A stretch of DNA of 64,000 nt from Apostichopus japonicus (lineage: Eukaryota; Echinodermata; Holothuroidea; Aspidochirotida; Stichopodidae). The notes under the pieces were generated by a model, which was given only the letters and a program-made list of their open reading frames with translations, was not told the DNA's origin and searched no databases. Shown piece by piece: positions 909 through 64,000 of the stretch; the first letter of the stretch is position 1, and the number at the start of each line of letters is the position of its first letter. A program made the position numbers and the translations under genes. The DNA is taken from assembly GCF_037975245.1 (NCBI RefSeq), contig NC_092570.1, positions 7,315,001 through 7,379,000 on the forward strand, written 5' to 3'.

Positions 909-2077
909 ATGATGGAAAGCACGTATAATCTCCGACTTGTCTCTTACTTTATGTATGGCGCCCTTATTCATATACTTCTCGTAGCTTCAGTACAAACCAC
1001 CTCCGTACATCTTGGTCCTGCAGAAGGATTCAGAAAATTTAGTGACGTCATCTTTCCCGGCGAGTACATTAGTTTACAGTGTGTGTGTGGGATGGACTGA
1101 CAACCTGTAACATATCAATGCTTTGTAATGACACAGTTATCTACGAGGAAGGAGGGCTTAAGTCTAATGATTATATTTTTAATAAAATTGAATCGTCCTG
1201 TTTACTGAGTATTACGTTTATCAATATAACTGTTCAGCACAAAGGAGTATATAAATGCCGGATACAGAATGGAGACACGAAAATGGAGGATACATACAAC
1301 CTCAACGTTGTTACGGAATGGCCTCAGTGCTTGGCTAAGTTTAATGAATCTGATAATAGCTTTCAATTGTTCTGTTACACATTTAGTCAGACGGGTCAAA
1401 ACGTTCCTCAGACATGGGAAATAATTGAACCAGGAGACAAGTCGAAGCCATTTTTGAACTTCACAATTCAACATAATCCAAGCATATCTGTATTGAAGAT
1501 TGTTGGCGTTTCACATTCGGAAATCACAGAAGAGAATCTAACCGATCTATACAAATGTTCTCATTTCAATGAATCTTCACGAAGTTGCTTCTTTAATTTT
1601 AATTCTCCCATGATCGACGTTATCACATCATCAACTCCACTTCCCGATGCAGGGTCCTCGGGTCCATCTGACCAACAGTCTGAGCAAGTAGTTACAGAAC
1701 CAGTGATTGCACCATCGACTACTAAAAGGAGGGTACTACAACAAACATCATTCAATCTCGTAGGTGTTGGGTTGTCATGTGCAGTTGTTGGCTTTATAGT
1801 GCCATTTATTTCACTTTTATTTACGTGTTTCAAACTAAAGGATAGGAAGAATGCGTCGAAAACTGCAGAAAACGAAGAGAACGAAGATCCTGCAGCAGCT
1901 ACAGCCTATTCTATGAAGATATTTAATACCAGAGACCAAACAAAGTACGAGACTACCATAACTAACAATACAAATAACACGTACGACTATGCAGACCAAA
2001 GAGAACTTAACATTAGAGAGTTACCAAGGCAGTCTCATGGAACGCCGACAGTTCAACAATACGAAACTGTACAGTAA
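909..2077 (+). pseudogene. R1, two-Ig-domain membrane receptor, short-tail class, frameshifted
   Basis: The conserved ATG at 909 opens a signal peptide (hydrophobic core VSYFMYGALIHILLVAS). The reading frame breaks at about 1079-1090, where R1 has TGTGTGTGTGGG and its paralogues have TGTGTGTGGG: one extra GT, giving a stop at about 1100. In the second frame the rest is intact: V-like Ig domain with the F-strand motif HKGVYKC, C2-like domain (FQLFCYTF ... LYKCSH), a Ser/Thr/Pro-rich stalk, a transmembrane helix (LVGVGLSCAVVGFIVPFISL) and a tail with YSMKI, YETTI, YDYA and YETV. Canonical Cys 144 of the second domain is Phe here. Single exon. As written the product would be a 63-residue fragment, but the rest shows no other damage, so a recent loss, a null allele or a sequencing error in the GT run are all possible. 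Confidence 0.85.
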
Positions 2078-2103
2078 AATACATACTGAGATGCAAGTGT
2101 GTC

Positions 2104-2109
2104 AATAAA
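2104..2109 (+). terminator. AATAAA polyadenylation signal of R1
   Basis: AATAAA lies 27 bases after the R1 stop codon, and the same signal sits at the matching place after R4, R6, R8 and R9. Confidence 0.65.
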
Positions 2110-3690
2110 AGACGGAATCGTTGTGTATTTAACGACTATTAACATACGTACTTAATATTAAAACGTATTTGGCGGAAACGGAACCAAATGACATGCATTA
2201 TAGCGACAGAGACTAATGATGAAACTTATCAAAGCTTTCTCGTGTTAAAGAAAAAAGCAAACAGTTTTTATACTTGGCAAAACCCAAAGCGCCGTTGATT
2301 TCAACCATTAGATGTGTGGACTTGCTCAAGTCCTTTAGTCTTCTCTGTATACATGAAAGAATATCGAAAGCGGCGAAATCTTGCTAATGGAATAATATCT
2401 TTCTTAGCTGCTTTGATGAAGTTGATTATTACCCACATCTTCATCACCTAGTTAACTTAATTGGTTAGGTTAATTGTTAGGTTAACTAATTGGTTTTCTT
2501 CTACTTTTATTTTAAGTTTGTGTCAGTGAATTACATCTCATCAGGACATGTCTTTTTTGTTTCCATAATCTTTTCTTACTTTGTTTCTTCTCAAACTCCT
2601 AGCTAACAATGTGCTTAATATGAAAAATCTGAACAATGTTGCTCTTTGTAGAGAGATGTTTGTAAATTCCTTTGAACGTCTTTTGAAGAAAAACGAGAGC
2701 AATGAAAGGAAACGAATAAAGAAATATTAAAATATTGAACAACTTAAAAATTTATATAAAGTCAGAATTTAAAACTGATATGAATGAAGGTAAATTTTTA
2801 TGCCTTTTTTTCCCTTTAAAACTGAAGTGAAATGAATGGAGACAATTTTAGAGAAACGCTTTCGAAGTAATAAAAAGATTTGATCCAAAACTTGATTAAT
2901 TTCAGTCTAACCAATTAAAATCAACATTTTAAGGACGCCTGAAAATATTTTAAGGAGTTCATGCTCATCCGTATAACTATATATAAACCATGGTAATAAG
3001 AGAATGCTATATCGGTGTTGTGTGTGTACGTGTGTTTGACCTTCAGCTATATATAACTCTCTATTTGGGATTTTTGTTGATTGTAAAAGTATATTATAAG
3101 TATACTATACGCACTACACAGAGAAATAAAACTGGTTACCTGCCTTCTTTGTTCAGTTGACGGTTCTGTCAGTTATTGGTTTTATTGTAAGTTTTATTTT
3201 GTATGTACATTGTAGAACAATGTGTGACGTCATTCACCAAAAAGTTTCTGCTTCTTTCATCGTTTTTAAAAACATCTTTATGTCATCAGTGCTCATTTAC
3301 AACCCTGTGTACTTCACATCAAATATCAGAAAATGGTATCGAGAATATCAATAATAATAATAATAATCAGGAATTGAACAATATGCCTATGAATTAGAGC
3401 AGTTTCCCAAAACTGTCCAAAAATAACTTTAACATGGCACGAGGTAAGCCGATGGACTAAACAGTATTCTTCACTAACTCAACCGGTATATTAATGGTCA
3501 CATGCCACTAGAAGTGAAAGATGGGAAGGGGGAAGTAGGGGCGCACGACCTGGTGAGCATTAGTATTCGTGTGAAGGCACGCGAGGACTACCTAATTTTG
3601 AAAATATACTCGTGTACGGGTGTGAGACCATCGTGGAAGGGTCCTGCATTGTATTAATTATACAAGCACAAACAATAAATTTCAAATCTT
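2110..3690 (+). other. duplicated 3' flank of R1
   Basis: No gene is seen. The block is a diverged duplicate of the sequence after R8 (about 52348-53980) and R9 (about 57769-59230), and of the R6 and R4 3' flanks in reverse. Small open frames at 3157-3397 are not kept in frame between copies, so they are judged non-coding. The end (about 3450-3660) belongs to another module that recurs at 18930, 35513 and 53750. Confidence 0.75.
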
Positions 3691-3770
3691 TGCGAAGGAA
3701 TTGAAATATGCCTCCATCCATCCCGATACCCCGTTTCACCCACCCATCGAAGTAAAAAAAGCGAGAGGAG

Positions 3771-3902
3771 TTTTGGCGCCTGGGTTCGATCCCCGGCCAA
3801 GGCAGTTTGCTTTTGCCGCTCTCTTATATGGTGGCTTGCCTTGATTAGGAGCTTTGAGTATTAGAAACGAGCACACACACACACATATATATATATATAT
3901 GA
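3771..3902 (+). repeat. tRNA-derived SINE, 3' part, ending in (CA)n(TA)n
   Basis: GGGTTCGATCCCCGG at about 3782-3796 is a good pol III B box with flanking T-stem, followed by about 75 bases of unique body and then CACACA and TATATA runs. No matching A box is seen upstream, so this looks like the 3' part of a tRNA-headed SINE rather than a tRNA gene. Confidence 0.5.
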
Positions 3903-6133: not shown

Positions 6134-7759
6134 TTATACTAGAGCATCGTCTTTACTAGGATCAAAGACACAGTAATGAATGTCCTCTTCTGTCTTGTCT
6201 TCTTCAAACGGCTCATATAAAGAACAATCAACCATATCGGTGGTATTTATCGGAGAATCATCTTGGAAATTGTCATCTTGAAACGTCAATTTATCAATAT
6301 CAACTATTGAATATGGTTCACATTGACTATCACGTAACTGGTTTGCCTTGCAACGAGGAGATACTTTCTTCACTTTCGCGTAAAGATGGTCTGGTACTTC
6401 ATCTTCATCGTTCGTTGTGTTCGATTTGTGTTTATATTCTTCAGTTTCATGAGAAGTTGTCTGTCTGACGTCATGACGAACGCCTCTTTTCTCCACCTTC
6501 TTGTAAAGATCTTCAGGTACTTTACCTTCACTCTCCGTAATGTGTGATCTGTTTGTGTTATCCTTTATTTCATGAGAGGTTGACTGTCTGGCGTCATGAC
6601 GAACGCTTCTTTTCTCCACCTTCTTGTAAAGATCTTCGGATATATTTCCTTCACTGTTCATTGTACTCCTATTATGTTTATCCTTCATAGATCCTCTCTC
6701 TGATTTCCTCTGTATTTCATCGTATGAAGGAATCTCCTGATTAGCATTATTAGATAATTTACCCAAGACCGTTCCTGTTTGAACCAAGTCGCCGTTCGTA
6801 TGTGTTTCGTTTAAATTCATACCTTTGCAAGAAAATCTGCCGTTTGTTTTACACATTATAACCGTCAAACAGACAGGTACTAACATAAATGAAACTGTAA
6901 CAGCTAAGATGATGATAATCGATTTCATTACGGGTTGCTCGCTGGTCTTAACGGATGTAGGCGATATCGATGTTGAGGTGTGACGTAATGGTCTCATAGA
7001 ATGCCTTTGATGTGTTGGTAAATCAATATTATTATCGTTGGTGTGCTTCCATCAATATCAATTGAAGATTCGAAATTAAAATAACAATTTCTAGATAGAT
7101 CATTAGAATATGAACACTTGTACTCATTGGTTAGATTCTCCTTGGTGATTTTTGCATGTGAAACCCCCACAATCTTCACTGCAGGCGTGCTTGAAAGATG
7201 TTGAATTGTGAAGTTCGTAAATGTCTCCGGATTGTTTCCCGGTTCAAGTTTTTCCCATGTCTGGAAAGCAGATTGACCTATCGGACTAAAGGTGTAACAA
7301 AACAATTGAAAGCTTCTATCAGATTCATTAAACTTAGCCAAACACTGAGGCGATTTCGTAACAACGTTGAGATTATGTGTCCTCCATTGTTGTGTCTCCA
7401 TTCTGTATCCGGCATTTATATATTCCTTTGTGCTGAATGGTTATATTGAAAAATATAATATTCAGTGACGAGGAAGATTCAATTTTATGAAAATCATAAT
7501 CATTAGACTTAAGCTCTCCTTCCTCGTAGATAAATGTGTCATTGATAAGCATTGATATGTTACAGGTTGTCAATCCATCCCACACACACTGTAAAATAAA
7601 TTTCTCTCCAGGAAAGATGACTTCACTAACATCTCTGAATCCTCCTAAAGGACCAAGATGTACGGATGTGGTTTGTACTAAAGCTACAAGAAGTATATGA
7701 ATAATGGCGCCATACATAAAGTAAGAGACAAGTCGAAGATCATACGTGCTTTCCATCAT
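6134..7759 (-). pseudogene. R2, two-Ig-domain receptor, long-tail class, two frameshifts
   Basis: Starts with the conserved ATG at 7759. Compared with R7, two bases are missing near 7375 (end of the first Ig domain) and one base near 7028 (juxtamembrane stalk), so the gene is read in three pieces: 7759-7373, 7401-6994 and 6997-6134. Both Ig domains are recognisable (HKGIYKC; FQLFCYTF ... EYKCSY), followed by a transmembrane helix (SIIIILAVTVSFMLVPVCL) and the most elaborate tail of the array: three tandem copies of a 41-residue unit with DLYKKV, DLYKKV and HLYAKV tyrosines (codons near 6628, 6505, 6382), then YSIV, YEPF and YCVF. The second domain has Phe instead of the extra Cys. The net loss is three bases, but the interval between the two indels is out of frame and meets stops, so the locus is a pseudogene as written. 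Confidence 0.85.
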
Positions 7760-15062: not shown

Positions 15063-16559
15063 TTATTCTATGTTATCCTCTTTATCAGGATCAAGAACAT
15101 CGTAATGAATTTCTTCTTCTGTCTTCTCGCTTCCAATAAGCTCATAAGCAGAATAGTCAACCATACCGGTGGTTTTTATCGACAAACCATTTTCAGAATG
15201 AGCGCCCGCTACCATCAATTGATCAATATCTTCAATCGATACTGTTAAATATGGTTCACATCTTCCACCAGGTGACTGGTTTCCCTGGTAACGAATACCT
15301 CTTTTCTCTATCCTCTTATAAAGATCATCTGGTAGCTTACTTTCACTGTTCCTTATGTACGATTTATATTTACCTTCCTGTAAATCTTGAGAGCTGGACT
15401 CTTGGTCGTTATTGTGAGGGCATCTTCGCTCTATTTTCTTGTACAGATCTTCTGGTAGTCCACATTCAGTATTCATTGCGTACGATTTGTATTTACTATC
15501 CGTGGAATCTTCTGTTGCTGTGGACGACACTATGTTTGTATTATTTGGTGATATAATCACCGTTCCTGTTTGTACCAATTCGTTTTCCCTCTGTGATTCA
15601 ATCTCTTGCTGCTTACCTTTCCAAAAAAGATGATTTTTCATTTTGTATATCATAACCGCCAAACTGACAGACAGTATCAGAAAGAGAACGGCAGCAGCTA
15701 TGATAATAATGATACTATTCCTGAATGGTTTCATTTGTGGCTGCTCGATGGTATAATTGGTTGTAAGTGGGAGTGAGGTGTGACTGAATGTACTCGTTGA
15801 AAACAATGGACGTGTTTCTAGCTTAGAGATTGGTTTGTTTGTGCTTACATCGATTTCGCAGGATAGCGTGAGATTGAAAGAACAACTTTTTGATAAATCA
15901 TTGAAATCAAAACACTTGTATAAACCGGTTAGATTCTCCTTGGTGATTTTCGTATTTGAAATTCCCACAATCTTCACAACAGATTTGCTTTGACGTTGGT
16001 GAATTATGAAGTTCGTAAATGTCTTCGAATTGTCTCCTGTATCAATTATTTCCAAAGTTTGGAAAACGTGCTGATCAGTCGGACTAAATGTGTAACAGAA
16101 CAATTGAAAGCTATTATCAGATTCATTACACTTAGCCAGGCACTGAGGCGATTCCGTAACAACGTTGAGTTCATACGTATCCTCCATTGTTGTGTCTCCA
16201 TTTTGTATCCGACATTTATATATTCCTTTGTGCTTAAGGGTAACATTGATAAATGTAATACTCATTGAACAAGACGATTCAATTCTTTTAAAAACATAAT
16301 CATTAGACTCAAGCCCTCCTTCCTCGTAGATAGAGGTGCCATTGATAAGCATTGATATGTTACAGGTTGTCAATCCATTCCACACACACTGTAAAATAAA
16401 GAGCTCTCCGGGAAAGATGACGTCACTAACATTTCTGAATCCTTCTGAAGGACCAAGATGTACGGAGGTGGTTTGTACTGAAGCTACAAGAAATATATGA
16501 ATAATGGCGCCATACATAAAGTAAGAGACAAGTCGAAGATTGTACGGGCTTTCCATCAT
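15063..16559 (-). CDS. R3, two-Ig-domain receptor, long tail with ITAM-like end
   Basis: Intact single-exon gene of 498 residues. The ATG at 16559 is chosen because it matches all paralogues; the frame stays open to a TTG at 16628 only because an extra T removes the usual upstream stop. Signal peptide about 1-30; V-like Ig domain about 35-135 (C58, C66, C97, C116; motif HKGIYKC); C2-like domain about 136-230 (FQLFCYTF, LYKCFD); stalk 231-280; transmembrane about 281-305; tail of about 190 residues. Tail tyrosines sit in DLYKKI (Y373), DLYKRI (Y414, exactly 41 residues on), PYLTV, AYELI (Y472) and HYDVL (Y486). YELI-x10-YDVL fits an ITAM-like spacing, and R3 is the only member with both halves. 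Likely a plasma-membrane receptor signalling through SH2 partners; ligand unknown. Nearly a twin of R5. Confidence 0.9.
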   Translation of the reverse strand: MMESPYNLRLVSYFMYGAIIHIFLVASVQTTSVHLGPSEGFRNVSDVIFPGELFILQCVWNGLTTCNISMLINGTSIYEEGGLESNDYVFKRIESSCSMSITFINVTLKHKGIYKCRIQNGDTTMEDTYELNVVTESPQCLAKCNESDNSFQLFCYTFSPTDQHVFQTLEIIDTGDNSKTFTNFIIHQRQSKSVVKIVGISNTKITKENLTGLYKCFDFNDLSKSCSFNLTLSCEIDVSTNKPISKLETRPLFSTSTFSHTSLPLTTNYTIEQPQMKPFRNSIIIIIAAAVLFLILSVSLAVMIYKMKNHLFWKGKQQEIESQRENELVQTGTVIISPNNTNIVSSTATEDSTDSKYKSYAMNTECGLPEDLYKKIERRCPHNNDQESSSQDLQEGKYKSYIRNSESKLPDDLYKRIEKRGIRYQGNQSPGGRCEPYLTVSIEDIDQLMVAGAHSENGLSIKTTGMVDYSAYELIGSEKTEEEIHYDVLDPDKEDNIE

Positions 16560-20122: not shown

Positions 20123-21283
20123 TTACTGTACAGTTTCGTATTGGTGAACTGTCGGCGTTCCATAAGATTGCCTTGGTAACTCTCTGGTGTTAAGTTCTCT
20201 TTGGTCTGCATAGTCATACGTGTTATTTGTATTGTTAGTTATGGTAGTATCGTACATTGTTTGGTCTCTGGTATTATATATCCTCATAGAATAGGCTGCA
20301 GCTGCTGCAGGATCTTCGTTCTCTTCGTTTTCTGCACTTTTTGAGGCATTCTTCCTATCCTTTAGTTTGTAACACGTAAATAGAAGTGCAATAAACGGTA
20401 CTATAAAGCCAACAACTGCACAGGACAACCCAATACCTACGAGCTTGAATGATGTTTGTTGTGGTACTCTCCTTTTAGTAGTCGATGCTGCAGTCACTGT
20501 TCCTGTGACTACTTGCTCAGACTGTTGGTCAGATGTACCCGAGGACCCTGCATCGAGGAGGGGAGTTGGCGCTGTGATAACGTCGATCATGGGAAAATAT
20601 AAGTTAAAGAAGCAACTTTTTGAAGAGTCATTTACATAAGAACACTTGTATAGACCGGTAAGATTCTTCTTTGTGATTTTCGTATTTGAAATCCCCACAG
20701 TCTTCACTACAGATGTGAATGAAAGATGTTGAATTGTATAGTCCGTAAATATCTTCGAATGGCTTCCTGGTTCGATTATTTCCCATCTCTGTAAAACAGT
20801 TTGACCAGTCGAACTAAAGATGTAACAGAACAATTGAAAGCTATTATCAGATACATTACACTTAGCCAAGCACTGAGGCGATTCCGTAACAACGTTGAGT
20901 TCATACGTATCCTCCATTGTTGTGACTCCATTCTGTACCCGGCATTTATATATTCCTCTGTGTTTAATGGTAACATTGATAAATGTAATATCCAGTGAAC
21001 AAGACGAAGAACTTTTAGCAAAAAAAAAAACCTGTGACTGAAACCCTCCTTCCTCGTAGATAGATATGTCATTAAAAAACATTGATATATTACAGGTTGT
21101 CAGTCCATCCCACACACACTGTAAAGTAAATTTCTCTCCAGGAAAGATGACGTCACTCAATTTTCTGAATAATGAAGGACCAAGTTGTACGGAGGTGGTT
21201 TGTACTGAAGCTACAAGAAGTATATGGATAATGGCGCCATACATAACGTAACAGACAGGTCGAAGATAGTAAGTGCTTTCCAT
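20123..21283 (-). CDS. R4, two-Ig-domain receptor, short-tail class
   Basis: Intact single exon of 386 residues. The first of the two usual Met codons is GTG here (21286), so translation most likely starts at the second, ATG 21283. Signal peptide about 1-29; V-like Ig domain with C56, C64, C95, C114 (HRGIYKC); C2-like domain with C138, C142, C153, C214 and C224; Ser/Thr/Gln-rich stalk about 230-279; transmembrane about 280-304 (LVGIGLSCAVVGFIVPFIAL); an 80-residue tail with AYSMRI, IYNT, MYDTTI, TYDYA, SYGT and a C-terminal YETVQ. The tail has many possible SH2-docking tyrosines but no clear paired ITAM. Four Ala before the first tyrosine are coded by a GCAGCTGCTGCA-like run. Closest to R8, R9 and R1, but lies on the other strand. 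Confidence 0.9.
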   Translation of the reverse strand: MESTYYLRPVCYVMYGAIIHILLVASVQTTSVQLGPSLFRKLSDVIFPGEKFTLQCVWDGLTTCNISMFFNDISIYEEGGFQSQVFFFAKSSSSCSLDITFINVTIKHRGIYKCRVQNGVTTMEDTYELNVVTESPQCLAKCNVSDNSFQLFCYIFSSTGQTVLQRWEIIEPGSHSKIFTDYTIQHLSFTSVVKTVGISNTKITKKNLTGLYKCSYVNDSSKSCFFNLYFPMIDVITAPTPLLDAGSSGTSDQQSEQVVTGTVTAASTTKRRVPQQTSFKLVGIGLSCAVVGFIVPFIALLFTCYKLKDRKNASKSAENEENEDPAAAAAYSMRIYNTRDQTMYDTTITNNTNNTYDYADQRELNTRELPRQSYGTPTVHQYETVQ

Positions 21284-22374: not shown

Positions 22375-23117
22375 TGTCACAAGGTCCCCCTAAACAGGGT
22401 CCTTGGAACAGGTGCAGGTCTGACACATAGAATCGATAAAAGAAGCGATACGAGTTTTAAACACAAAAATTTACTTTATTAAATGAAACCATAAGTTACG
22501 TGAGGTCTCCTACAATAATACTTAGAAATACAAATGAATAATAATAATAATACGAATAATGCAGGTTAGGCTTGAAACGGCTTTCTCTCCAGATACAGGA
22601 TAACGACTCTATCTCCGCCTCTCAGGCAATCGAAAGGAACATCGCATGTCTCCTCTCAGTCAATGCTTGACCTAATTCTCAGGTCACAAGCTACCACCAG
22701 GTCACGGCTCCAATCCAAAACCTGGTTCACGCAATACGTTGACTTTCACTATACGTTGACTTTCACAATAGACGTTGACTTTCACAATATACGTTGACTC
22801 TCACAATATACGTTGACTCTCACAATATACGGTGACTTCACTTTCAAAATTATAACTTTTTTTTTACTGTGCTGGTCCCCGACCAAATCGTCTCCCAATC
22901 TATACAGCGGGATGTCAGTGAGCGAAGTGAGTAACTCTATGCTTAATATTCCACAGAGGAAACATTCCAAAAACCGCCCAAGGAATGTAAAGGTACGACT
23001 ACTAGTATTAAGTCTATTGTTACACACACATTTATGCAAATGAGATACTGCAGTTACATAATTAGAAATTCCCTAAGTAGTACAACTAAGAGTGTTATTT
23101 TGATCGACCCCCTGACA
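22375..23117 (-). repeat. 3' LTR of the Gmr1-like element
   Basis: Starts and ends in TG...CA and is matched by the copy at 27847-28589. It contains several near-copies of ACGTTGACTTTCAC (about 22735-22830), which may act as LTR enhancer repeats. Confidence 0.93.
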
Positions 23118-27844: not shown

Positions 27845-27846
27845 GT

Positions 27847-38935: not shown

Positions 38936-40324
38936 TTACTGTACAGTTTCGTATTGTTGAGCTGTCGGTGTTCCATAAGATTGCCTTGGTAACTCTCTGG
39001 TGTTAAGTTCTCTTTGGTCTGCATAGTCGTACGTGTCATTTGTATTGTTAGTTATGGTAGTATCGTACATTGTTTGGTCTGTGGTATTATGTATCCTCAT
39101 AGAATAGGCTGCAGCTGCTGCTGGATTTTCGTTCTCTTCGTTTTCTGCACTTTTTGACGCATTCTTCCTATCCTTAATTTGTAACATGTAAATAGAAGTG
39201 CTATAAACAGTCGATGGTACAGTCACTGGAAGCTCACCTTCATTCCTCATTGAATGCGGTACTTGATTACTATCTGTACGGTGTTCTTCTATTGCTTGAC
39301 ATGTTGAACTTTCTGAGTTAGCAGTATCGGATGATCTCCTGAAGACTACAGCTGTTTGACCCAAGTCGTTTCCCACCTGTGCTCTCTTCTCCTTCTTGTT
39401 TACTGTTTCAGAGAAGCTATTCTTCATCTTGTAAGTAATGACAGTCAAACTGGCGCAAACCATCAGAAAGACAGCCGCAGTAACTACAATAATTACAATG
39501 CTCTTAGGTTTCTTTGCTGGCTGCTTGCTAGTATCAGATGGTAGTGATGTGTGACGTAATGTACTCATTAAACGATTAATACGTGTTGGTGGAACACTGG
39601 TATATGATGTGCTAATATCGATCCCGCGAGAATAATTGAGATTAAAAATACAACTTTTCGAAGCTTCCAATGAATAAGAACACTTGTATTGTTCCATTCG
39701 ATTCTCCCCGTTTATATTCTCAATAGACACGCCTACGCGCTTCACCTTGCTAGGACCTTTTCTTATTGTGAATTCCGTAAATGTTGTCGAACCAACTCCT
39801 ATATCAAATATTTCCCATGTCTGAGGAACGTAACTACCAGTCGGACTAAAGGTGTAACATAACAATTGAAAGTTATTTTCATATTCATTGAACTTAGTCA
39901 AACACTGAGGCGATTCAGTAACAACATTGAGTTCATACTTATCCTTCATTGTTGTGTCTCCATTCTGTACAAGACATTTATATATTCCTTTGTGCTGTAA
40001 GTTTACATTGTTAATTTGAATATTCAGTGAACAATTTGACGAACGACTATTAGTAAAACCACTATCCTGGGACTGAAACCCTCCTTCCTCGTAGATAGAG
40101 GTGTCATTAAATGACATTGATATATTACAGGTTGTCAATCCATCCCACACACACTGTAAAATAAAGAGCTCTCCAGGAAAGATGACGTCACTAAATTGTC
40201 TGAATCCTTCCGCAGGACCAAGATGTACGGATTTGGTTTGTACTGAAGCTACAAGAAGTATATGAATAATGGCGCCAAACATAAAGTAAGAGACAAGTCG
40301 AAGATTATACGTGCTTTCCATCAT
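38936..40324 (-). CDS. R6, hybrid two-Ig-domain receptor (R10-type body, R4-type tail)
   Basis: Intact single exon of 462 residues, ATG 40324. Residues 1 to about 365 are close to R10: signal peptide, V-like domain (C58, C66, C98, C117), C2-like domain (Phe instead of the extra Cys), transmembrane about 274-297 (SIVIIVVTAAVFLMVCASLTVI) and membrane-near tail. At about residue 366 (near 39229) the sequence switches to the short class: a scrap of its stalk (TVPST), then DRKNASKSAENEENENP, YSMRI, YDTTI, YDYA, SYGT and YETVQ, with the short-class transmembrane segment deleted between them. A one-base loss (AAATTAAGG against AAACTAAAGG) restores the frame. The R10 motif YQEI is CQAI here, so all useful tail tyrosines come from the short-class part. 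The 3' flank is also R4-like, so the breakpoint is a recombination within the gene. Confidence 0.9.
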   Translation of the reverse strand: MMESTYNLRLVSYFMFGAIIHILLVASVQTKSVHLGPAEGFRQFSDVIFPGELFILQCVWDGLTTCNISMSFNDTSIYEEGGFQSQDSGFTNSRSSNCSLNIQINNVNLQHKGIYKCLVQNGDTTMKDKYELNVVTESPQCLTKFNEYENNFQLLCYTFSPTGSYVPQTWEIFDIGVGSTTFTEFTIRKGPSKVKRVGVSIENINGENRMEQYKCSYSLEASKSCIFNLNYSRGIDISTSYTSVPPTRINRLMSTLRHTSLPSDTSKQPAKKPKSIVIIVVTAAVFLMVCASLTVITYKMKNSFSETVNKKEKRAQVGNDLGQTAVVFRRSSDTANSESSTCQAIEEHRTDSNQVPHSMRNEGELPVTVPSTVYSTSIYMLQIKDRKNASKSAENEENENPAAAAAYSMRIHNTTDQTMYDTTITNNTNDTYDYADQRELNTRELPRQSYGTPTAQQYETVQ

Positions 40325-41207
40325 CTCTTACACTCAACAATCGAATTGTCTGGAAAAACTGCGACAGATCGCTCTTACTTAAATCCCTTGCCAACAGAAC
40401 ACCGCTCACACCTTTTCAATGGCTGTTACTAGAACATGTTGTATTTTATGAAATTTAATATGATCGGACGACAACTGCAAAACAGTGACACGAACAGAAA
40501 TGACATAAAACAAAATCCACACGATAATAACATAACAAAAATTAATAAACTCCATTCCGTACACACTATAAATAAAAAGAGCTCTCCGTGGAAAGATAGC
40601 GTCACTATATTCTGTGAATCCTTCTGAAGGTCCATATGATCAGGACGTAGTTTGTACTGAAGATTCAAGAAGCATATGAGTTAATGGCGCTATGCATGTA
40701 GTAAGATATACATGGAAGACGATAGATGGCCATTACATCAATGTAATTTACACTGAATCCAATTCACAGAAAGACCAGCACATATTTTTCATAGATCTCC
40801 TCACCAGTTGTCAATAGAGCACACCCTGACACTAACTTAACGACGGTGAAATATATTACAGTGCTAACGACATATAATTCATATGATCGATACCAAAAAT
40901 TAGAGTAAAGTGAAGCAGGAAGCGATAAATCCAACCTATTATAACACATTTACACGCAATTTCACTTTTACATTGAGAAACTAATTGTGTTAGCCTGAGG
41001 TACGTTGTTCGAGTAAAGTTTGAACATGAACTACAAGTAAAGATCTGTTTCAAAAAGAATGATATTTGTAACTTCCTCATTAGGAATTCCTAGTTCAGCA
41101 ATGCATTCGTTGAGAGTGTGACACGTCTTATCTTCATTCAATGTTATTCTTTCAATAGTTCCTTTATGTCAGTAATGAAATATCAAGTTAGAGAGCTATA
41201 TATATTA
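40325..41207 (-). promoter_or_regulatory. 5' flank of R6
   Basis: Leader at 40325-40405, then sequence shared with the flanks of R7 (47170-48060) and R10 (60941-61715), including a family relic at 40550-40730. It ends in GAGAGCTATATATATTATGC just as the R7 flank does. Confidence 0.6.
40550..40730 (-). pseudogene. relic of receptor signal-peptide/first-domain start
   Basis: Reverse-strand similarity to codons 1 to about 60 of the family: an MLLES-like hydrophobic piece, YxVVCTEW remnants, and the conserved SEGFTEYSD-like words in broken frame. The same relic lies upstream of R7 and R10 at the same distance, so it predates their duplication. Confidence 0.6.
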
Positions 41208-43804: not shown

Positions 43805-43923
43805 TATTGAAATCGTAGTGAGTTGAAAAATCCTGAACAGTGAAAGAACTTCCAGTCTCCACCGGGATTCGAACCCGGGCCTCCCGTTTTATATGCGGGC
43901 ACTCTAATTACTAGACTATGGAC
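43805..43923 (-). repeat. tRNA-derived SINE with (TA)n tail
   Basis: On the - strand the head has an A-box-like TAGTCTAGTAATTAGAG and a perfect B box GGGTTCGAATCCC; the acceptor arm pairs only partly. A 50-base body (AGTTCTTTCACTGTTC ... CTACGATTTC) follows, then (TA)n. Pieces of the same SINE occur at 50241-50305 and as a palindrome at 61986-62104. Confidence 0.7.
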
Positions 43924-45879: not shown

Positions 45880-47169
45880 TTAGTCTAAGGTGACGTTTTT
45901 AGTAGGATCAAGCACATCGTCATGAATTTCCTCTTCTGTCTTCTCTCCTTCAAACGGCTCATATACAGAACAGTCAACCATATTGGTGGTATTTATCGGA
46001 GATTCATCTTGGAAATTGGCGTCTTGAAATGTAAGTTTATGAATATCAACTGTTGAATATGGTTCACATTGACTATCACTGTTCATTGTGTTCCTATCAT
46101 CCATAGATATTCTCTCTGATTTCCTCTGTATTTCATCGTATGAAGAAAACCCTGGATTAACATTTTCAGATAATTTACTCAAGACCGTTCCTGTTTGAAC
46201 CAAGTCGCCTTTCGTATGTGTTTCGTTTACCTTCCTACCTTTGCTAGAAAATCTAGCCTTTGTTTTACACATTATAACCGTCAAACAGACAGATAATATC
46301 AGAAATGAAACTGTTAGAGCTACGATGATAATAATCCATTTCATTACGGGTTGCTCGCTGGTCTTATGGGGTGTAGGGGGTGTTGAAGTGTGACGTAATG
46401 AACTCATAGAATACCTTTCATGTGTTGGTAAATCAGATTTTACTATCGTTGGTGTGCTTACATCAATATCAATTGAAGATTCGAAATTAAAATAACAATT
46501 TCTAGACAGATCATAAGAATAGGAACACTTGTACTCATTGGTTAGATTCTCCTTGGTAATTTTTACATGTGAAACCCCCACAATCTTCACTACAGATTTG
46601 CTTGAAAAATGTTGAATTGTGAATTCGGTAAATGTCTTAGATTTGTCTTCTGGTTCAATTATTTCCCATGTCTGTAAAGCAGATTGACCAATCGGACTAA
46701 AGGTATAACAGAACAATTGAAAGCTATTATCAGATTCATTACACTTAGCCAAACACTGAGGCGATTTCGTAACAACATTGAGTTCATATGTATCCTCCAT
46801 TGTTGTGTCTCCATTCTGTACCCGGCATTTATATATTCCTTTATGATGAATGGTTACATTGTTAATTTGCATATTCAGTGAACAAGACGAAGAACTTTTA
46901 GCAAAAACATATTCCTGGGACTCAAGCCCTCCTTCCTCGTAGATAGTAGCGTCGTTGATAAGCATTGACATGTTACAGGTTGTCAATCCATTACACACAC
47001 ACTGTAAAGTAAATATCTCCCCAGGAAAGATGACGTCACTCAATTTTCTGAATGCTTCTGCAGGACCAAGATGTACGGAGTTGGTTTTCACTGAAGCTAC
47101 AAGAAGCATATGAATAATGGCGCCATACATACAGTAAGAGACAACTCGAAGATCATACGTGCTTTCCAT
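45880..47169 (-). CDS. R7, two-Ig-domain receptor, long class with reduced tail
   Basis: Intact single exon of 429 residues. Only the second of the two usual start Met codons is present (ATG 47169; the first is ATA). Signal peptide about 1-29; V-like domain in which the usual CVWDG is CVCNG, losing the Trp and adding a Cys at the GT-repeat site; C2-like domain (FQLFCYTF, EYKCSY); stalk; transmembrane about 268-290 (IIIIVALTVSFLILSVCLTVI). The tail is short for its class: the 41-residue DLYKKV repeats found in its close relative R2 are missing. YDEI (Y334), YSTV (Y361) and YEPF (Y393) remain, and the last tyrosine is Asp (HDDVL for HYDVL). Any signalling output should therefore be weaker or different from that of R3. 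Confidence 0.9.
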   Translation of the reverse strand: MESTYDLRVVSYCMYGAIIHMLLVASVKTNSVHLGPAEAFRKLSDVIFPGEIFTLQCVCNGLTTCNMSMLINDATIYEEGGLESQEYVFAKSSSSCSLNMQINNVTIHHKGIYKCRVQNGDTTMEDTYELNVVTKSPQCLAKCNESDNSFQLFCYTFSPIGQSALQTWEIIEPEDKSKTFTEFTIQHFSSKSVVKIVGVSHVKITKENLTNEYKCSYSYDLSRNCYFNFESSIDIDVSTPTIVKSDLPTHERYSMSSLRHTSTPPTPHKTSEQPVMKWIIIIVALTVSFLILSVCLTVIMCKTKARFSSKGRKVNETHTKGDLVQTGTVLSKLSENVNPGFSSYDEIQRKSERISMDDRNTMNSDSQCEPYSTVDIHKLTFQDANFQDESPINTTNMVDCSVYEPFEGEKTEEEIHDDVLDPTKNVTLD

Positions 47170-48076
47170 TATCTCTTACACTCAACAATCGAATTGTCTA
47201 AAAACTGCGACAGATCGCTTTTTCTTAAATCCGCTGCCAACAGAACACCGCTCACACGATATCAATGGCTGTTACTAGAACACGTTGTGTTCTATGAAAT
47301 TTAATATGATCGGACGTCAACTGTAATACAGTGACACGAACAGAAAAACAAATTCCACGCGATAATAAAATAACAACAAATAATAAGCTCCATTCCGTAC
47401 ACACTATAACTAAAAAGAGCTCTCCGGGTAAAGATGACGTCACTATATTCTGTGAATCCTTCTGAAGGTCCAAGATATAACGAGGTAGTTTGTACTGAAG
47501 CTACAAGAAGCATATGAGTTAACGGCGCTATGTATGTAGTAAGATATAAATGGAAGGCGATATATGGCCATAACATCAATGTAATTTACACTGAATCCAA
47601 TTCACAGAAAGACCAGCATATATTTATCATAGATCTCCTCTCCAGTTGTCAATAGAGCACACCCCCTGACACTAACTTAACGACGGTGAAATACATTACA
47701 GTGCTAACAACATGTAATTCATATGCCGGATCGAAGCCAAAATTAGAGTATAAGTGAAACAGGAAGCGATCGACAAATATAAATCCAACCGATTACAACA
47801 CATTTACACGCAGTTTCACTTCAATTTTAAGGAACTAATCGTGTAAACCGGAGGTATGTTGTTCGAGTAAATAAACAAATTTGAACATGAACTACAGCAA
47901 AGATATGTTTCAAATAGAATGATATTTGTAACTTCCTCATTCCTAGTTCAGCAATGCATTCGTTGAGAGTGTGACACGTCTTATCTTCATTCAATGTTAT
48001 TCTTTCAATAGTTCCTTTATGTCAGTAATGAAATATCAAGTTAGAGAGCTATATATATTATGCTATATATATTAAG

Positions 48077-51189: not shown

Positions 51190-52314
51190 ATGTATGGCGC
51201 TATTATTCATATGCTTCTTGTAGCTTCAGTACAAACAACCTCCGTACATCTTGGTCCTGCAGAAGGATTCAGACAAGTTAGTGATGTCATCTTTCCTGAA
51301 GAGTTCTTTATTTTACAGTGTGTGTGGGATGGATTGACAACCTGTAATATATCAATGTCATTTAATGACACCTCTATCTACGAGGAAGGAGGGCTTAATA
51401 CTAATGAATATGTTTTTAATAAAATTGAATCATCCTGTTCACTGATTATTAAATTTTTCAATGTAACCATTCAACACAAAGGAATATATAAATGCCGGAT
51501 ACAGATTGGAGACACAACAATGGAGGATACATACAACCTCAACGTTGTTACGGAATGGCCCCAGTGCTTGGCTAAGTGTAATGAATCTGAAAGTAGCTTT
51601 CAATTGTTCTGTTACACCTTTAGTCCGATTGATCAATTTGTTTTTCAGACATGGGAAATAATTGAACCAGGAGACAATTCGAAACTTTTTACGGAATTCA
51701 CAATTCAACAACGTCAAAGCATATCTGTTGTGAAGACTGTAGGGATTTCACATATAAAAATCACAAAGGAGAATCTTACCGGTCTATACAAGTGTTCTTA
51801 TTCAAATGACTCTTCAAAAAGTTGCTTCTTTAACTTATATTCTCCCATGATCGACGTTATCACATCGCCAACTCCCCTCCTCGATGCAGGGTCCTCGGGT
51901 CCATCTGACCAACAGTCTGAGCCAGTAGTCACAGGACCAGTGACTGCACCATCGACTACTACAAGGAGGGTACCACAACAAACATCATTCAAGCTCGTAG
52001 GTATTGGGTTGTCATGTGCAGTTGTTGGCTTTATAGTGCTATTTATTGCACTTTTATTTACGTGTTTCAAACTAAAGGATAGGAAGAATGCGTCGAAAAC
52101 TGCAGAAAACGAAGAGAACGAAAATCCTGCTCCAGCTGCAGCCTATTCTATGAGGATATATAATACCAGAGACCAAACAATGTACGAGACTACCATAACT
52201 AACAATACAAATAACACTTATGACTATGCAGACCAAAGAGAACTTAACACCAGAGAGTTACCAAGGCAATCTTATGGAACGCCGACAGTTCAACAATACG
52301 AAACTGTACAGTAG
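51190..52314 (+). CDS. R8, two-Ig-domain receptor, short-tail class, shortened leader
   Basis: Intact single exon of 374 residues. The first ATG in frame is 51190, which corresponds to Met 15 of the other members; the usual first 14 codons and leader are gone and a different upstream segment is joined directly in front. The remaining MYGAIIHMLLVASVQT is still a plausible signal peptide. The two Ig domains are complete (HKGIYKC; FQLFCYTF ... LYKCSY), followed by the Ser/Thr stalk, a transmembrane helix (LVGIGLSCAVVGFIVLFIAL) and a tail with AYSMRI, MYETTI, TYDYA, SYGT and YETVQ. Tyrosine spacing is as in R4. Since its promoter region differs, its expression may differ. A spliced 5' exon cannot be excluded. 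Confidence 0.88.
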   Translation: MYGAIIHMLLVASVQTTSVHLGPAEGFRQVSDVIFPEEFFILQCVWDGLTTCNISMSFNDTSIYEEGGLNTNEYVFNKIESSCSLIIKFFNVTIQHKGIYKCRIQIGDTTMEDTYNLNVVTEWPQCLAKCNESESSFQLFCYTFSPIDQFVFQTWEIIEPGDNSKLFTEFTIQQRQSISVVKTVGISHIKITKENLTGLYKCSYSNDSSKSCFFNLYSPMIDVITSPTPLLDAGSSGPSDQQSEPVVTGPVTAPSTTTRRVPQQTSFKLVGIGLSCAVVGFIVLFIALLFTCFKLKDRKNASKTAENEENENPAPAAAYSMRIYNTRDQTMYETTITNNTNNTYDYADQRELNTRELPRQSYGTPTVQQYETVQ

Positions 52315-56580: not shown

Positions 56581-57735
56581 ATGGCCAGCTGGAATAAACC
56601 TGAACTTATCTCTTTCTTTATGTATGGCGCTATAATTCATATTCTTCTTGTAGCTTCAGTACAAACCACCTCCGTACATCTTGGTCCATTCGAAGCAATC
56701 AAAAAATTTAGTGACGTCATCTTTCCTGGAGAGCTCTTTATTTTACAGTGTGTGTGGGATGGATTGACAACCTGTAACATATCAATGTTATTGAATGACA
56801 CAGTTATCTACGAGGAAGGAGGGCTTAAGTCTAATGATTATTTTTTTAATAATATTGAGTCGTCCTGTTCACTGATTATTACATTTACCAATGTAACCAT
56901 TCAACACAAAGGAATATATAAATGCCGGATACAGAATGGAGACACAACAATGGAGGATACATACAACCTCAACGTTGTTACGGAATGGCCCCAGTGCTTG
57001 GCCAAGTGTAATGAACATGAAAATAGCTTTCAATTGTTCTGTTACACCTTTAGTCCGATTGATCAATTTGTTTTTCAGACATGGGATATAATTGAGCCAG
57101 GAGACAATTTGAAACCTTTTACGGACTTCATTCTTCAACAACGTCCAAGCAGCTCTGTAATGAAGATTGTTGGGGTTTCACATTCGAAAATCACAAAGGA
57201 GAATCTAACCGATCGATACAAATGTTCTCATTCAAATGACTTTTCACGAAGTTGCTTCTTTAATTTTAATTCTCCCATGATCGACGAAATCCCATCACCA
57301 TCTCCACTCCCCGATGCAGGGTCCTCGGGTCCTTCTGACCTACAGTCTGAGCAAGTTCGTACAGGACCAGTGACTGCACCATCGACTACTAAAAGGAGGG
57401 TACCACAACAAACATCATTCAAGCTCGTAGGTATTGGGTTGTCATGTGCAGCTGTTGGCTCTATAGTACCGTTTATTGCACTTCTATTGACGTGTTACAA
57501 ACTAAAGAATAGGAAAAATGCGTCGACAACTGCAGAAAACGAAGAGAATGAAGATCCTGCAGCAGCTGCAGCCTATTCTATGAGGATATATTATACCAGA
57601 GACCAAACAATGTACGAGACAACCATAACTGACAATACAAATGACACGTACGACTATGCAGACCAAAACGAACTTAACACCAGAGAGTTACCAAGGCAAT
57701 CTCATGGAACGCAACAATACGAAACTGTACAGTAA
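56581..57735 (+). CDS. R9, two-Ig-domain receptor, short-tail class, distinct N-terminus
   Basis: Intact single exon of 384 residues. The ATG at 56581 gives MASWNKPELISFF before the family resumes at MYGAIIHILLVAS; an upstream in-frame TTG (56554) is not used here as start. The N-terminus and upstream DNA are unlike all other members. V-like and C2-like Ig domains are complete (HKGIYKC; FQLFCYTF ... RYKCSH); a Ser/Pro stalk, a transmembrane helix (LVGIGLSCAAVGSIVPFIAL) and a tail with AYSMRIYYT, MYETTI, TYDYA and YETVQ follow. The four residues before QQYETVQ and the SYGT tyrosine (here SHGT) are lost. Adjacent to R8 in the same direction. Confidence 0.9.
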   Translation: MASWNKPELISFFMYGAIIHILLVASVQTTSVHLGPFEAIKKFSDVIFPGELFILQCVWDGLTTCNISMLLNDTVIYEEGGLKSNDYFFNNIESSCSLIITFTNVTIQHKGIYKCRIQNGDTTMEDTYNLNVVTEWPQCLAKCNEHENSFQLFCYTFSPIDQFVFQTWDIIEPGDNLKPFTDFILQQRPSSSVMKIVGVSHSKITKENLTDRYKCSHSNDFSRSCFFNFNSPMIDEIPSPSPLPDAGSSGPSDLQSEQVRTGPVTAPSTTKRRVPQQTSFKLVGIGLSCAAVGSIVPFIALLLTCYKLKNRKNASTTAENEENEDPAAAAAYSMRIYYTRDQTMYETTITDNTNDTYDYADQNELNTRELPRQSHGTQQYETVQ

Positions 57736-59638: not shown

Positions 59639-60940
59639 TTATCCTTCAAAAGGCTCATATACAGGACAATCAACCATATCGGTGTTATTTATTGAGGAAA
59701 CATTTCGGCAATTAGTGCCCTCTATTATCGATTGATCGATATCGTCAATCGATACCGTTAAATATGGCTTCAATCTTCCATCACTTAACTGGTTTTCCAG
59801 ATAACGAACGCCTCGTTGCTCTCTTTCCATAGAGATATCTTCTGGAAGCTCACCTACATTCCTCATTGAATTTGGTACGTGATTATTATCTGTTCGGTCC
59901 TCTTGTATTTCTTGATATATTGAACTTTCTGAGTTAGCAGTATCGGATGATCTACTGAAGACTACAGCTGTTTGAGCCAAGTCGTTTCCAACCTGTGCTG
60001 TATTCCCCTTCTTGTTTACTGTTTCAGAGAAGTTATTATTTATGTTGTAAGTAATGACAGTCAAACTGGCGCAAACTATCAGCAAGACAGCCGCAGTAAC
60101 TACAATGATAACAATTACCGTAGGTTTCTCTGCTGGCTGCTTACTAGTATCAGGTGGTGGTGAGGTGTGACGTAATGTACTTATTGAACGATTAATACGT
60201 GTTGGTGTAACAATGGTAGATGATGTGCTAATATCGATCCCGCGAGAACAATTGAGATTAAAAATACAACTTTTCGAAGCTTCCATTGAATAAGAACACT
60301 TGTATCGTCCCGTTAGAGTTTCCTTGTTTATATTCTCATTAGACACGCCTACGCTCTTCACATTGCTTGGACCATTTTTAATTGCGAATTCCGTAAATGT
60401 TGTCGAACCAACTCCTAGCTCAAATATTTCCCATGTCTGAGAAAGGTAACTGCCAGTCGGACTAAAGGTGTAACATAACAATTGAAAGCTATTTTCATAT
60501 TCATTGAACTTAGTCAAACACTGAGGCGATTCAGTAACAACGTTGAGTTCATACGTATCCTCCATTGTTTTGTCTCCATTCTGTACCCGACATTTATATA
60601 TTCCTTTGTGCTGTACGTTTACATTGTTAATTTGAATATTCAGTGAACAATTTAACGAACGACTATTAGTAAAACCACTCTCCTGGGACTGAAACCCTCC
60701 TTCCTTGTAGATAAAGGTGTCATTAAATGACATTGATATGTTACAGGTTGTCAATCCATCCCACACACACTGTAAAATAAAGATCTCTCCAGGAAAGATG
60801 ACGTCACTAAATTGTCTGAATCCTTCTGCAGGACCAAGATGTACGGATTTGGTTTGTACTGAAGCTACAAGAAGTAAATGAATAATGGTGCCATATATAA
60901 AGTAAGAGACAAGTCGAAGATCATACGTGCTTCCCATCAT
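59639..60940 (-). CDS. R10, two-Ig-domain receptor, long class with clipped tail
   Basis: Intact single exon of 433 residues, ATG 60938-60940. Signal peptide about 1-30; V-like domain (C58, C66, C98, C117; HKGIYKC); C2-like domain (FQLLCYTF, RYKCSY) with Phe in place of the extra Cys; stalk; transmembrane about 274-297 (VIVIIVVTAAVLLIVCASLTVI). Tail tyrosines are in YQEI, RYLEN, PYLTV and YEPF. The stop comes right after YEPFEG, so the EKTEEEIHYDVLDP end of the class is missing. The DLYKKI units are reduced to one tyrosine-less PEDISMERE. The body is the donor type of R6. Confidence 0.9.
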   Translation of the reverse strand: MMGSTYDLRLVSYFIYGTIIHLLLVASVQTKSVHLGPAEGFRQFSDVIFPGEIFILQCVWDGLTTCNISMSFNDTFIYKEGGFQSQESGFTNSRSLNCSLNIQINNVNVQHKGIYKCRVQNGDKTMEDTYELNVVTESPQCLTKFNEYENSFQLLCYTFSPTGSYLSQTWEIFELGVGSTTFTEFAIKNGPSNVKSVGVSNENINKETLTGRYKCSYSMEASKSCIFNLNCSRGIDISTSSTIVTPTRINRSISTLRHTSPPPDTSKQPAEKPTVIVIIVVTAAVLLIVCASLTVITYNINNNFSETVNKKGNTAQVGNDLAQTAVVFSRSSDTANSESSIYQEIQEDRTDNNHVPNSMRNVGELPEDISMEREQRGVRYLENQLSDGRLKPYLTVSIDDIDQSIIEGTNCRNVSSINNTDMVDCPVYEPFEG

Positions 60941-61893
60941 CTCTTACACTCAACAATAGAATTGTCTGAAAAACTGCGACAGATCGCTTTTACTTAAATC
61001 CGTTGCCAACAGTACACCTCTTACACGATATGAATGGCTGTGACAAGTACACGTTGTATTTTATGAAATTTAATATGATCGGACGACATCTGCAATACAG
61101 TGACACGAAGAGAAAAACAAAATCCACGCAATAATAAAATAACAACAAATAATAAACTCCATTCCGTACACACTATAAATAAAAAGAGCCATCCGGGGAA
61201 ACGTCACTATATTCTGTGAATCCTTCTGAAGGTCCAAGATATAAGGAGGTAGTTTGTACTGAAGCTTCAAGAAGCATATGAGTTAATAGCGTTAAGCATG
61301 TAGTAAGATATAAATCGACGACGGTAGATGGTCACCACACCCCCTGACACTAATTTAATGACGGTGAAATACATTACAGTGCTAAAAACATGTAATTAAT
61401 ATGCCGGATCGAAGCCAAAATGAGAGTATAAGTGAAACAGGAAGCGATAAATCCAACCTATTACAACACATTTACACGCAATTTCACTTTTACATTGAGA
61501 AACTAATCGTGTTAGCCCGAGGTATGTTGTTCGAGTAAAGTTTGAACATGAACTACAAGTAAAGATCTGTTTCAAATAGAATGATATTTATAACTTCCTC
61601 ATTCCTAGTTCAGCAATGCATTCGTTGAGAGTGTGACACGTCTTATCCTAATTCAATGTTATTCTTTTAATAGTTCCTTTAGGTCAGTAATTAAATATCA
61701 AGTTAGAGAGCTAAGCGCTTTTTAAGAGGAACTCGTATGAACGTAACATATCGCAAAGTAAAGCATTATAATTCAGTGACAGACTATTTCAAATCATTCC
61801 GTGACTCATTCTATTGACTAAATTAAATCTGGTTATATATCCGTTATCTTGTGGCTTCCTTTGCAAAAAAAACCTTGTTTCTGATGACGTCTC

Positions 61894-61894: not shown

Positions 61895-61991
<97 letters not shown>

Positions 61992-62145: not shown

Positions 62146-62186
<41 letters not shown>

Positions 62187-62215
62187 TATACATATATATA
62201 TATATATAATATAGC
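61895..62215. repeat. (TA)n tracts around a SINE palindrome
   Basis: (TA)n at 61897-61988; two SINE 3' halves in opposite orientation (61986-62039 and 62051-62104) forming a near-perfect 54-base palindrome with an 11-base spacer CCTCCACCGGA; then more (TA)n to 62210. Confidence 0.93.
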
Positions 62216-63193
62216 AAAAAATCTACCACCCAAAAAATAAACACACGCAAACAAACAAACAACATACGCATATTCTGTATCATCGGCGTTTTGTTTTGTC
62301 ACTTTTAGCCACAACTGGATAATAAGGTCTCCGTCCTATCGTCACAACACAATACACACTACGTTCGGCGCGTTCATTAATTAAATGTGGTTCACACAGC
62401 ATATATTTGCACGTGATTATCTCTCACATATCATGAAACACAGGAATAAAGTTTCTACTTTAAACCGCGAGAAACGGGAAAATTTCAAATAATGCGACGT
62501 GACATGTCATTATACATTTTGGGCAATTGTTACCATTCTAAAATAACTTTCATTGTGACCTAACCCATAGACAGTCTGCAGGCGTCGAGCTACTTTTGCA
62601 CTTCTAAGGCTGTATGTAATAACCTGATTAGTTGATTTATACTTGCGTTGATATGACAGTAAACACAGAACCAACGGAAAGGCATCAAAGCCTATACTAT
62701 AGTAGAAGACTTTACATAGCATACGGAATGGTATGCAAAACTATTCAATTGTATCACAGTTAATGAATACATTGGAAGATGAGTCCATTCTAAGACGATG
62801 CAGAGGTATAACAGAGCAGGAATGCAGAGAGTAACTAGGTAAAAAAAAACATATAGGCCTAGTTTCACTTTTACTGCGAATGTTAACAGTCTTGAAGGAA
62901 AATTCTTGCATCTGGAGCAGACGATTGCAAATTAACGAGACTTGTGTTTTATACCAATACAGGCAACTAAGCTCCAAGCTATATTAATAAACAATGGCAG
63001 AATGAAGCTCCTCGACATAGATAATATCGAATTATGCGGTGAAAATCAACAATAACTATATGTTTCGTTGGGACAGACAATTATTGTGAGGAACATTCAA
63101 TAGACATGAAATCGACGCAAAATATTGAGATGTTCATATATCTAGTGAAATTTACCTGCCATATATTATAAAGTGGCAATGCTGAATATGTTT

Positions 63194-63230
<37 letters not shown>

Positions 63231-63603
63231 GCTATACCCCGGGCGTAGTATCGTTTCGGCAAATAACTTTGAGCTCCAGTTCCGTTTATTAAAAATCTGT
63301 GTGAAACTAAATATATATTTGACAAGACTGTGTATTTTGATTGGTCCTTTCGATCCGCCGCTCAAACAGTTTGGAATAGATTGCCAATGAGTGTTCGATC
63401 CTGCACTTCTTCTTTTTAATGCCGTCTTCAGACACAACTTTTGGATCAAGCTTTCAATGTGTAACTCTACCGCGGTGACATTTTCATGTATATGTTCTTT
63501 GAACTTTAGAGTCTCTCTTAACTTTTAAAGTCTTGATTCTGGTCATTGTTTACCCTATTTTTCTTTCTTTTTTGTAAGCTTTTGATTAATTTACTATGTG
63601 GTT
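62216..63603. other. intergenic, duplicated with 48150-50130
   Basis: Matches the R7 upstream region but lacks the LINE. (TA)n at 63198-63230. 63230-63603 shows nothing recognised. Confidence 0.7.
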
Positions 63604-64000
63604 TTATTTTTTTAATGTATCACTTTTCGTAGGATCAATAACCTGGTATTCAGGATCCCGTTCTTGCCCGTCTGGTACATATTCATAATCATCATCTGCT
63701 GACGTACTAACTACGTCATCATCGTTATTGACATCCAATGATTGTGGTTCTTCCTTTCCACTAGTTTTTACCTCATTTACATCTTCATATGGCGCTATCA
63801 AATCTTGCTCTCCAAGTTCTCCGTTTTGAGATTCATCTTTTCTGTCCAATGTTTTATATAGCTCATTTGCAACTTCTCCGCTACTACCACTGGCATTATA
63901 TGAAACATAACCATCCCCCATAGAGCTCAGTTGGTCTCCTTGTTGTGTATCTGGATCCACTATATAGTTAGCAAATGTAAAGCTGGAAGCAGTTCCATAA
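63604..64000 (-). CDS. R11, cytoplasmic tail of a further receptor, 5' end outside the window
   Basis: The frame is open from the stop at 63604 to the right edge; a GTG at 63958-63960 is internal, not a start. The 132 visible residues are acidic and hydrophilic, with tyrosines in YVSY, ELYKTL, PYEDV, YEYV and EYQVI. ELYKTL resembles the DLYKKI unit, and the end EYQVIDPTKSDTLKK matches the class ending HYDVLDPTK/SK, so it is most likely the tail of another long-class member with a diverged tail. No membrane or Ig part is inside the window. Confidence 0.75.
   Translation of the reverse strand, partial: YGTASSFTFANYIVDPDTQQGDQLSSMGDGYVSYNASGSSGEVANELYKTLDRKDESQNGELGEQDLIAPYEDVNEVKTSGKEEPQSLDVNNDDDVVSTSADDDYEYVPDGQERDPEYQVIDPTKSDTLKK

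Follow-up and report, generated by a model that had tools for sequence, protein, structure and literature searches.

A cluster of single-exon, two-immunoglobulin-domain receptor genes with variable tyrosine tails in the sea cucumber Apostichopus japonicus, candidates for innate recognition receptors

What kind of receptor is encoded by a tandem array of related, intronless genes in the sea cucumber Apostichopus japonicus, and what could such an array be for? The array was met in a stretch of 64,000 nucleotides, here called the window, which is C10:7315001-7379000 (assembly GCF_037975245.1, contig NC_092570.1). The genes encode proteins with a leader, two immunoglobulin (Ig) domains, a membrane helix and a tyrosine-rich tail, and we put at about even the probability that they belong to a family of germline-diversified, paired-receptor-like innate recognition receptors that signal via phosphotyrosine. 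This reading is drawn from sequence comparisons over a genome of 671,581,487 bases in 35 contigs, in which loci were located by tblastn with two window proteins as queries and a third query that covered a divergent tail.

The window contains ten related single-exon genes, eight open and two broken, together with the tail of a divergent eleventh. The original prediction of eleven related loci, some of them pseudogenes, is thus borne out, and the full cluster is larger. All 31 genome matches of the protein encoded by the gene g15 (E-value up to 0.001) fall within C10:7251631-7379989, and the whole cluster spans 129 kb with 22 loci, of which the window holds the right-hand part. It consists of 21 core loci (g01-g21) and the divergent g22. 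Of the core copies, sixteen keep an open frame of about 374-535 codons and five (g01, g04, g07, g12 and g13) are broken. Each of the eight open window copies is a single frame without introns that begins at a Met and encodes in turn a hydrophobic leader, two modules with paired Cys, a stem, one membrane helix and a tail, up to a stop codon; the leader and helix were called by eye from hydrophobicity. The ectodomains are 58-98% identical among the 16 open copies of the cluster. The claim that single-exon receptors with two Ig domains stand here in tandem is supported.

The two modules, an outer D1 and an inner D2, are Ig domains by profile, which places the proteins in the immunoglobulin superfamily. 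The Pfam families Ig_3, I-set and Ig_2 were matched by all eight members of a D1 alignment (seven cluster copies and g22), with best E-values of 6.8e-8 for Ig_3 and 1.8e-6 for I-set; V-set was matched in seven of the eight and more weakly. Scores are modest, and only one of eight whole window proteins (g15) reaches the curated Pfam Ig cut-off. D2 from the cluster alone gave no usable match (Pfam ig in 1/8, E-value 0.031; best PDB E-value 0.14). With distant relatives added, the D2 profile matched 111 PDB sequences at E-values up to 0.5 (best 2.1e-4); the best 60 of these are, judging by their names, Ig chains, with V-type shark VNARs and MDGA1 at the top. A combined D1 and D2 profile matched 956 sequences at E-values up to 0.1, and among the best 60 of these pIgR, PECAM1, NCAM2, MDGA1 and CAR aligned over both domains; contactin was also matched. 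Relatives that are only 19-21% identical to the first row of the alignment keep an invariant Cys pair in D1 with the Tyr of YxC, an invariant Cys-Trp-Cys in D2, and an invariant extra Cys after the last Cys of D2. The order V-like then C2-like that had been proposed is not supported, since D1 fits Ig_3, Ig_2 and I-set above V-set and the best PDB matches of D2 are the V-type VNARs. Sub-threshold Pfam names, m04gp34like and Adeno_E3_CR1, were set aside as weak Ig or membrane-segment similarity.

The tails differ in motif number, as had been predicted of variable tyrosine tails, and fall into three classes, the third of them a fusion. Class A features a short tail of 75-78 residues with 6-7 Tyr and is carried by four open copies, g11, g15 (20123..21283, minus strand; 7 Tyr), g19 (51190..52314, plus strand; of the leader Mets only the second is present) and g20 (56581..57735, plus strand); the broken g12 (909..2077, plus strand) also belongs here and has a frame change near 1082. 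Class B features a tail of 112-230 residues in which a LYKK[IV]E-like module is repeated 0-3 times. Its nine open copies are g02, g05, g06, g08, g10, g14, g16, g18 and g21, of which g10 and g21 have shortened tails. Within the window, g14 (15063..16559, minus strand, 498 aa) carries LYKKIE, LYKRIE, SAYELI and IHYDVL, g16 (30050..31546, minus strand) also encodes 498 aa, g18 (45880..47169, minus strand) has a short tail without LYxx repeats in which the terminal Tyr of the motif resembling an immunoreceptor tyrosine-based inhibition motif (ITIM) is replaced (IHDDVL), and the tail of g21 (59639..60940, minus strand) ends in VYEPFEG. The class B copy g13 (6134..7759, minus strand) is broken, its frame changing near 7.38 kb and again near 7.03 kb. 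Class C, with g03, g09 and g17, each open over 460-462 codons, joins the stem and helix of class B onto an A tail; g17 (38936..40324, minus strand, 462 aa) has the B ectodomain, stem and helix. Read by eye, the class C junction runs from B sequence to sequence like the A stem and from there, in a different frame, to the latter half of the region coding for the A helix; the A frame is regained at KDRKNAS, where class C is one base shorter than A. Class C is read as a fusion of a B to an A paralog followed by a deletion. A donor of tail A was not found elsewhere in the genome, the lone match outside the cluster having an E-value of 0.2.

Across 24 tails, LY[AGK]x[VIL]x[KR] is found 17 times against a shuffle mean of 0.01, and Yxx[VIL] occurs 58 times against a shuffle mean of 24.3 and maximum of 40, neither shuffle figure being a true probability because the first motif was picked after the tails had been viewed and the tails are related. 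The former is present in 6 of the 9 B tails and in none of the four A or three C tails. An ITIM-type match is found in all nine class B tails, in one of three C tails and in none of the four A tails.

The copies arise by block duplication. The best block pair extends over 6.46 kb at 97.6% identity, and self-matches of at least 2 kb, among the 60 longest of 517, are 81-98% identical. Recombination between copies, predicted as gene conversion, is supported by a test of the pairwise homoplasy index (PHI) type on all open copies except g19 (15 of 16), in which the observed value was 0.358 and none of 1000 permutations (mean 0.403) came out as low. A run test, which assumes even rates and is weaker than the PHI-like test, placed 10 of 105 pairs above a global threshold. 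Divergence climbs along the gene: third-position difference rises from 0.086 in the leader to 0.360 at the end of D2, and the mean pairwise proportion of synonymous differences (pS) is 0.081 in the leader, 0.198 in D1 and 0.370 in D2. The non-coding DNA upstream is far more divergent: when 20 loci are compared, a mean identity of about 0.90 over the first 200 coding bases gives way to 0.79 and 0.72 in the next two 100-base steps in the upstream direction, and to 0.48-0.63 between -300 and -900. The nonsynonymous proportion in the leader, pN 0.099, exceeds its pS, so conversion is favoured over protein constraint as the cause of the low leader pS.

Tips and tails are partly uncoupled. Among the 16 open copies, tail class shows no link to the leader, where 762 of 2000 shuffles gave as high a value, or to D1 (217 of 2000), and it is linked to D2 (19 of 2000). 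By D1 the nearest neighbour has the same tail class in 7 of 16 copies, and by D2 in 13 of 16. Leader and D1 are thus unlinked from tail class while D2 is linked; together with the test support for recombination, this suggests that the outer domain has been exchanged between different tails. Close ectodomains on different signalling tails, as in paired receptors, are exemplified by the class C copy g09 and the class B copy g21, which are 87% identical over their ectodomains and have different tails.

Selection on the cluster is mostly purifying, and positive selection is not proven. The tree-counted ratio of nonsynonymous to synonymous change (dN/dS) is 0.58 in D1 and 0.59 in D2, with a leader value of 1.34 that is not significant, and the ratios below 1 indicate that the genes have been kept as proteins. 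Pairwise peaks (pN/pS of 1.66 at the start of D1, and 1.38 and 1.33 in the C'-E segment) were considered as signs of positive selection and rejected, as tree-based counts do not hold them up.

Several clusters, that of the window among them, make up what looks, from sequence similarity, to be a wider family. Scaffold C23 has a weak match to g22 (E-value 0.0017), which led to a relative, L050, and to a second tandem array of 10 loci at C23:3.835-3.895 Mb; one fragment lies at C23:0.05 Mb. Further relatives on C10 number 10 loci at 2.94-3.00 Mb, 2 at 4.26-4.30 Mb, 4 at 12.72-12.75 Mb, 4 at 15.90-15.92 Mb, 9 at 16.40-16.48 Mb and 1 at 16.76 Mb, and a single locus at C21:12.47 Mb contains a stop. 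The family totals about 64 loci as a lower bound, a count that takes in pieces and broken loci and in which the weakest links between clusters have E-values of 0.005-0.03; 52 of the loci are on C10, and the window cluster, with 22, is the largest found. Seven outside relatives were read (L050 and L052-L057). L052-L056 run in a single frame from leader through helix to tail, although the stretch read for L055 ends ahead of its stop. The frame of L050 is broken, and L057 was read as a partial stretch. The remaining relatives were judged by open-frame length alone, and the other clusters retain many long open frames. The LY[AGK]x[VIL]x[KR] motif is present in g22, L050, L053 and L057 and absent from L052, L054, L055 and L056. 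A more distant group of single-exon Ig genes, outside the family count, lies at C5:3.98-4.02 Mb with six matches (E-values 4e-4 to 0.009); the one gene read there, L058 (C5:4007300-4009000), has three Ig-like modules by eye, a helix and a tail. A supposed Ig array at C23:14.97 Mb was discarded, being titin-like by eye at the single place read.

If the family does consist of innate recognition receptors, the proteins would be displayed on the cell surface, where the Ig tip would bind a ligand on microbes or other cells. Tyrosine motifs of the tail, such as LYxx[VI] and the ITIM-like IHYDVL in class B and YETV in class A, would be phosphorylated and recruit SH2 proteins. Similar tips on different tails would then form a germline repertoire of paired receptors for innate recognition by coelomocytes.

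Several observations weigh against this reading. ITIM-type motifs number 11 against a shuffled-tail mean of 5.9 and maximum of 13, which is no clear enrichment, and the spacing of an immunoreceptor tyrosine-based activation motif fits only one of 17 scanned tails (g14). One representative helix per class A, B and C, with bounds set by eye, contains no charged residue, and therefore no pairing of the DAP12 type is suggested. Two AlphaFold2 models from shallow, window-only alignments were poor (predicted local distance difference test scores of 34.1 and 38.5) and did not confirm the fold. The fast adaptive evolution that had been predicted is not borne out by the D1 and D2 ratios. Of 120 pairs, just 5 have dN above dS in D1 and 3 in D2, and the lone 15-codon stretch at p 0.044, uncorrected, would fail correction. 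The low divergence of the 5' end could partly reflect constraint, including constraint on the DNA itself, and not conversion. Additionally, the links between clusters are partly weak.

The likeliest alternative is that these are adhesion, developmental or gamete-surface receptors in a neutral tandem expansion, with tails that serve as adhesion or endocytic adaptors, which we regard as rather unlikely. The adhesion proteins NCAM2, contactin, PECAM1 and CAR among the profile matches, the known second role of Yxx-hydrophobic motifs as sorting signals, and a dN/dS under 1 with no significant peak are all consistent with it, but the five broken copies among 21 core loci, a D1 unlinked from tail class and a tail class made by fusion are judged unusual for adhesion genes. 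An explanation that we hold to be improbable is self- or allorecognition, in which the tips would bind each other or allelic partners, as in Hydractinia Alr, and the cluster would act as a germline barcode. Alr receptors are tandem Ig type I proteins with tyrosine tails and pseudogenes, and the broken copies, inter-copy exchange and fusion tail class found here follow the pattern typical of them; Alr genes differ in being multi-exon. Selection for fusion rejection is not obvious in sea cucumbers, which are solitary. Very improbable is a decaying retrogene-derived array in which most copies lack a selected function, for while the complete lack of introns points to a founder that was retroposed long ago, a quarter or so of the core (5/21) is broken and a young retrotransposon sits inside the cluster, 16 of the 21 core loci are open at length, D1 and D2 have a dN/dS of about 0.58-0.59, and long open frames persist in the other clusters.

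The novel immune-type receptors (NITRs) of teleosts form a multigene family clustered on several chromosomes, with 44 genes in 3 clusters in medaka (PMC2442602). They resemble the sea cucumber family in this clustering, in their type I architecture of one or two Ig domains, in their tyrosine-motif tails and in species-specific expansion; both Ig domains share a single exon in some fish species (PMC2442602). NITRs differ in being a fish family with V plus I domains, J-like ends and a charged helix residue in activating forms, whereas the echinoderm family has the whole gene, including helix and tail, in one exon, an Ig_3/I-set-like D1 and uncharged representative helices. The paired receptors KIR/LILR, CEACAM and CHIR likewise join related ectodomains to differing signalling tails, and they too show tandem duplication and conversion. 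These are multi-exon vertebrate genes, and the opposing signalling established for them is only presumed for the sea cucumber family. The family resembles them in logic, and no descent from NITR or KIR/CEACAM is claimed.

Among invertebrate systems, the sea urchin SpTransformer (Sp185/333) proteins are not Ig receptors. Their genes likewise form an echinoderm immune multigene cluster with segmental duplications and repeats, and differ in having two exons (PMC3091723). Oyster CgIgIT2 is another invertebrate membrane protein of the immunoglobulin superfamily with an immunoreceptor-type tyrosine motif, and it is expressed in hemolymph; it has five Ig domains, and a tandem intronless cluster is not described in the portion of PMC11999971 consulted. 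VCBPs differ by their chitin-binding domain and FREPs by their fibrinogen-like domain; Pfam searches with the eight receptors of the window and the tail of g22 matched neither. Dscam, with many Ig and FN3 domains and alternatively spliced exons, differs from the sea cucumber genes, which have two Ig domains in one exon each and no Pfam match to FN3 in the window receptors. Searches of an open-access library on Ig receptors turned up no published description of the family, and to that extent the prediction that it is undescribed stands.

The window also holds other elements. The tail of g22 (63604..63999, minus strand) belongs to a relative about 25-31% identical, and the gene runs past the window. 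Decayed 5' relics lie upstream of six copies, among them g17 (40526..40684, minus strand; leader and D1 start with stops and frame changes), g18 (47430..47555, minus strand) and g21 (61155..61286, minus strand); a role as alternative first exons was weighed for them and dismissed, since their reading frames are interrupted by stops and shifts. Between g15 and g16, a young long terminal repeat (LTR) retrotransposon at 22375-28589 has LTRs of 743 bp with one mismatch (99.87%) and one long open frame (23215-27702) with an integrase core upstream of reverse transcriptase, which is the order of Gmr1-type gypsy elements. An open frame at 41976-43289 matches reverse transcriptase (RVT_1, E-value 6e-14) and is Penelope-like by eye; near it, the only Rfam match of the window, tRNA-like (30.5 bits), at 43858-43922 on the minus strand, is perhaps part of a short interspersed nuclear element. 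An AAT-type microsatellite of about 480 bases occupies the left window edge (1-483), and at 9923-10927 two adjoining tandem arrays have a unit of about 145 bases, their units by eye being reverse complements of each other. The right flank of the cluster, C10:7389081-7396350 (L019:81-7350), contains open frames for a flavin adenine dinucleotide-dependent oxidoreductase, AIFM2-like by eye. Elsewhere in the assembly, the 16,099-base contig C35 is mitochondrial, with cox1, nad4L, cox2, atp8, atp6, cox3, nad3, nad4, nad5, nad6 (minus strand), cob, Phe tRNA and, further on, nad1, nad2 and 16S, most of them named from translations by eye; the order is that of the echinoid/holothuroid pattern. Five COX1 pieces at C29:14745-31219, besides the full COX1 on C35, are perhaps copies of mitochondrial DNA. 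Eight stretches of the genome fitted a pattern for viral contigs, and none was confirmed.

Echinoderm immunity is usually framed through the TLR, NLR, scavenger-receptor and Transformer families (PMC13428168). We tentatively suggest, at somewhat less than even confidence, that this intronless family of about 64 loci, mostly linked on one chromosome (52 on one 20-Mb scaffold), does in this echinoderm what the leukocyte receptor complex does in vertebrates: gene conversion would distribute the tips among alternative phosphotyrosine tails, new tail classes would come from paralog fusion and the absence of introns would ease whole-gene exchange. If this is true, the tip-and-tail logic of KIR and NITR can arise elsewhere, in intronless form, in a deuterostome without lymphocytes. 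The loci would also offer a concrete and testable gene set in a farmed species, in which skin ulceration disease is under study (PMC4906609).

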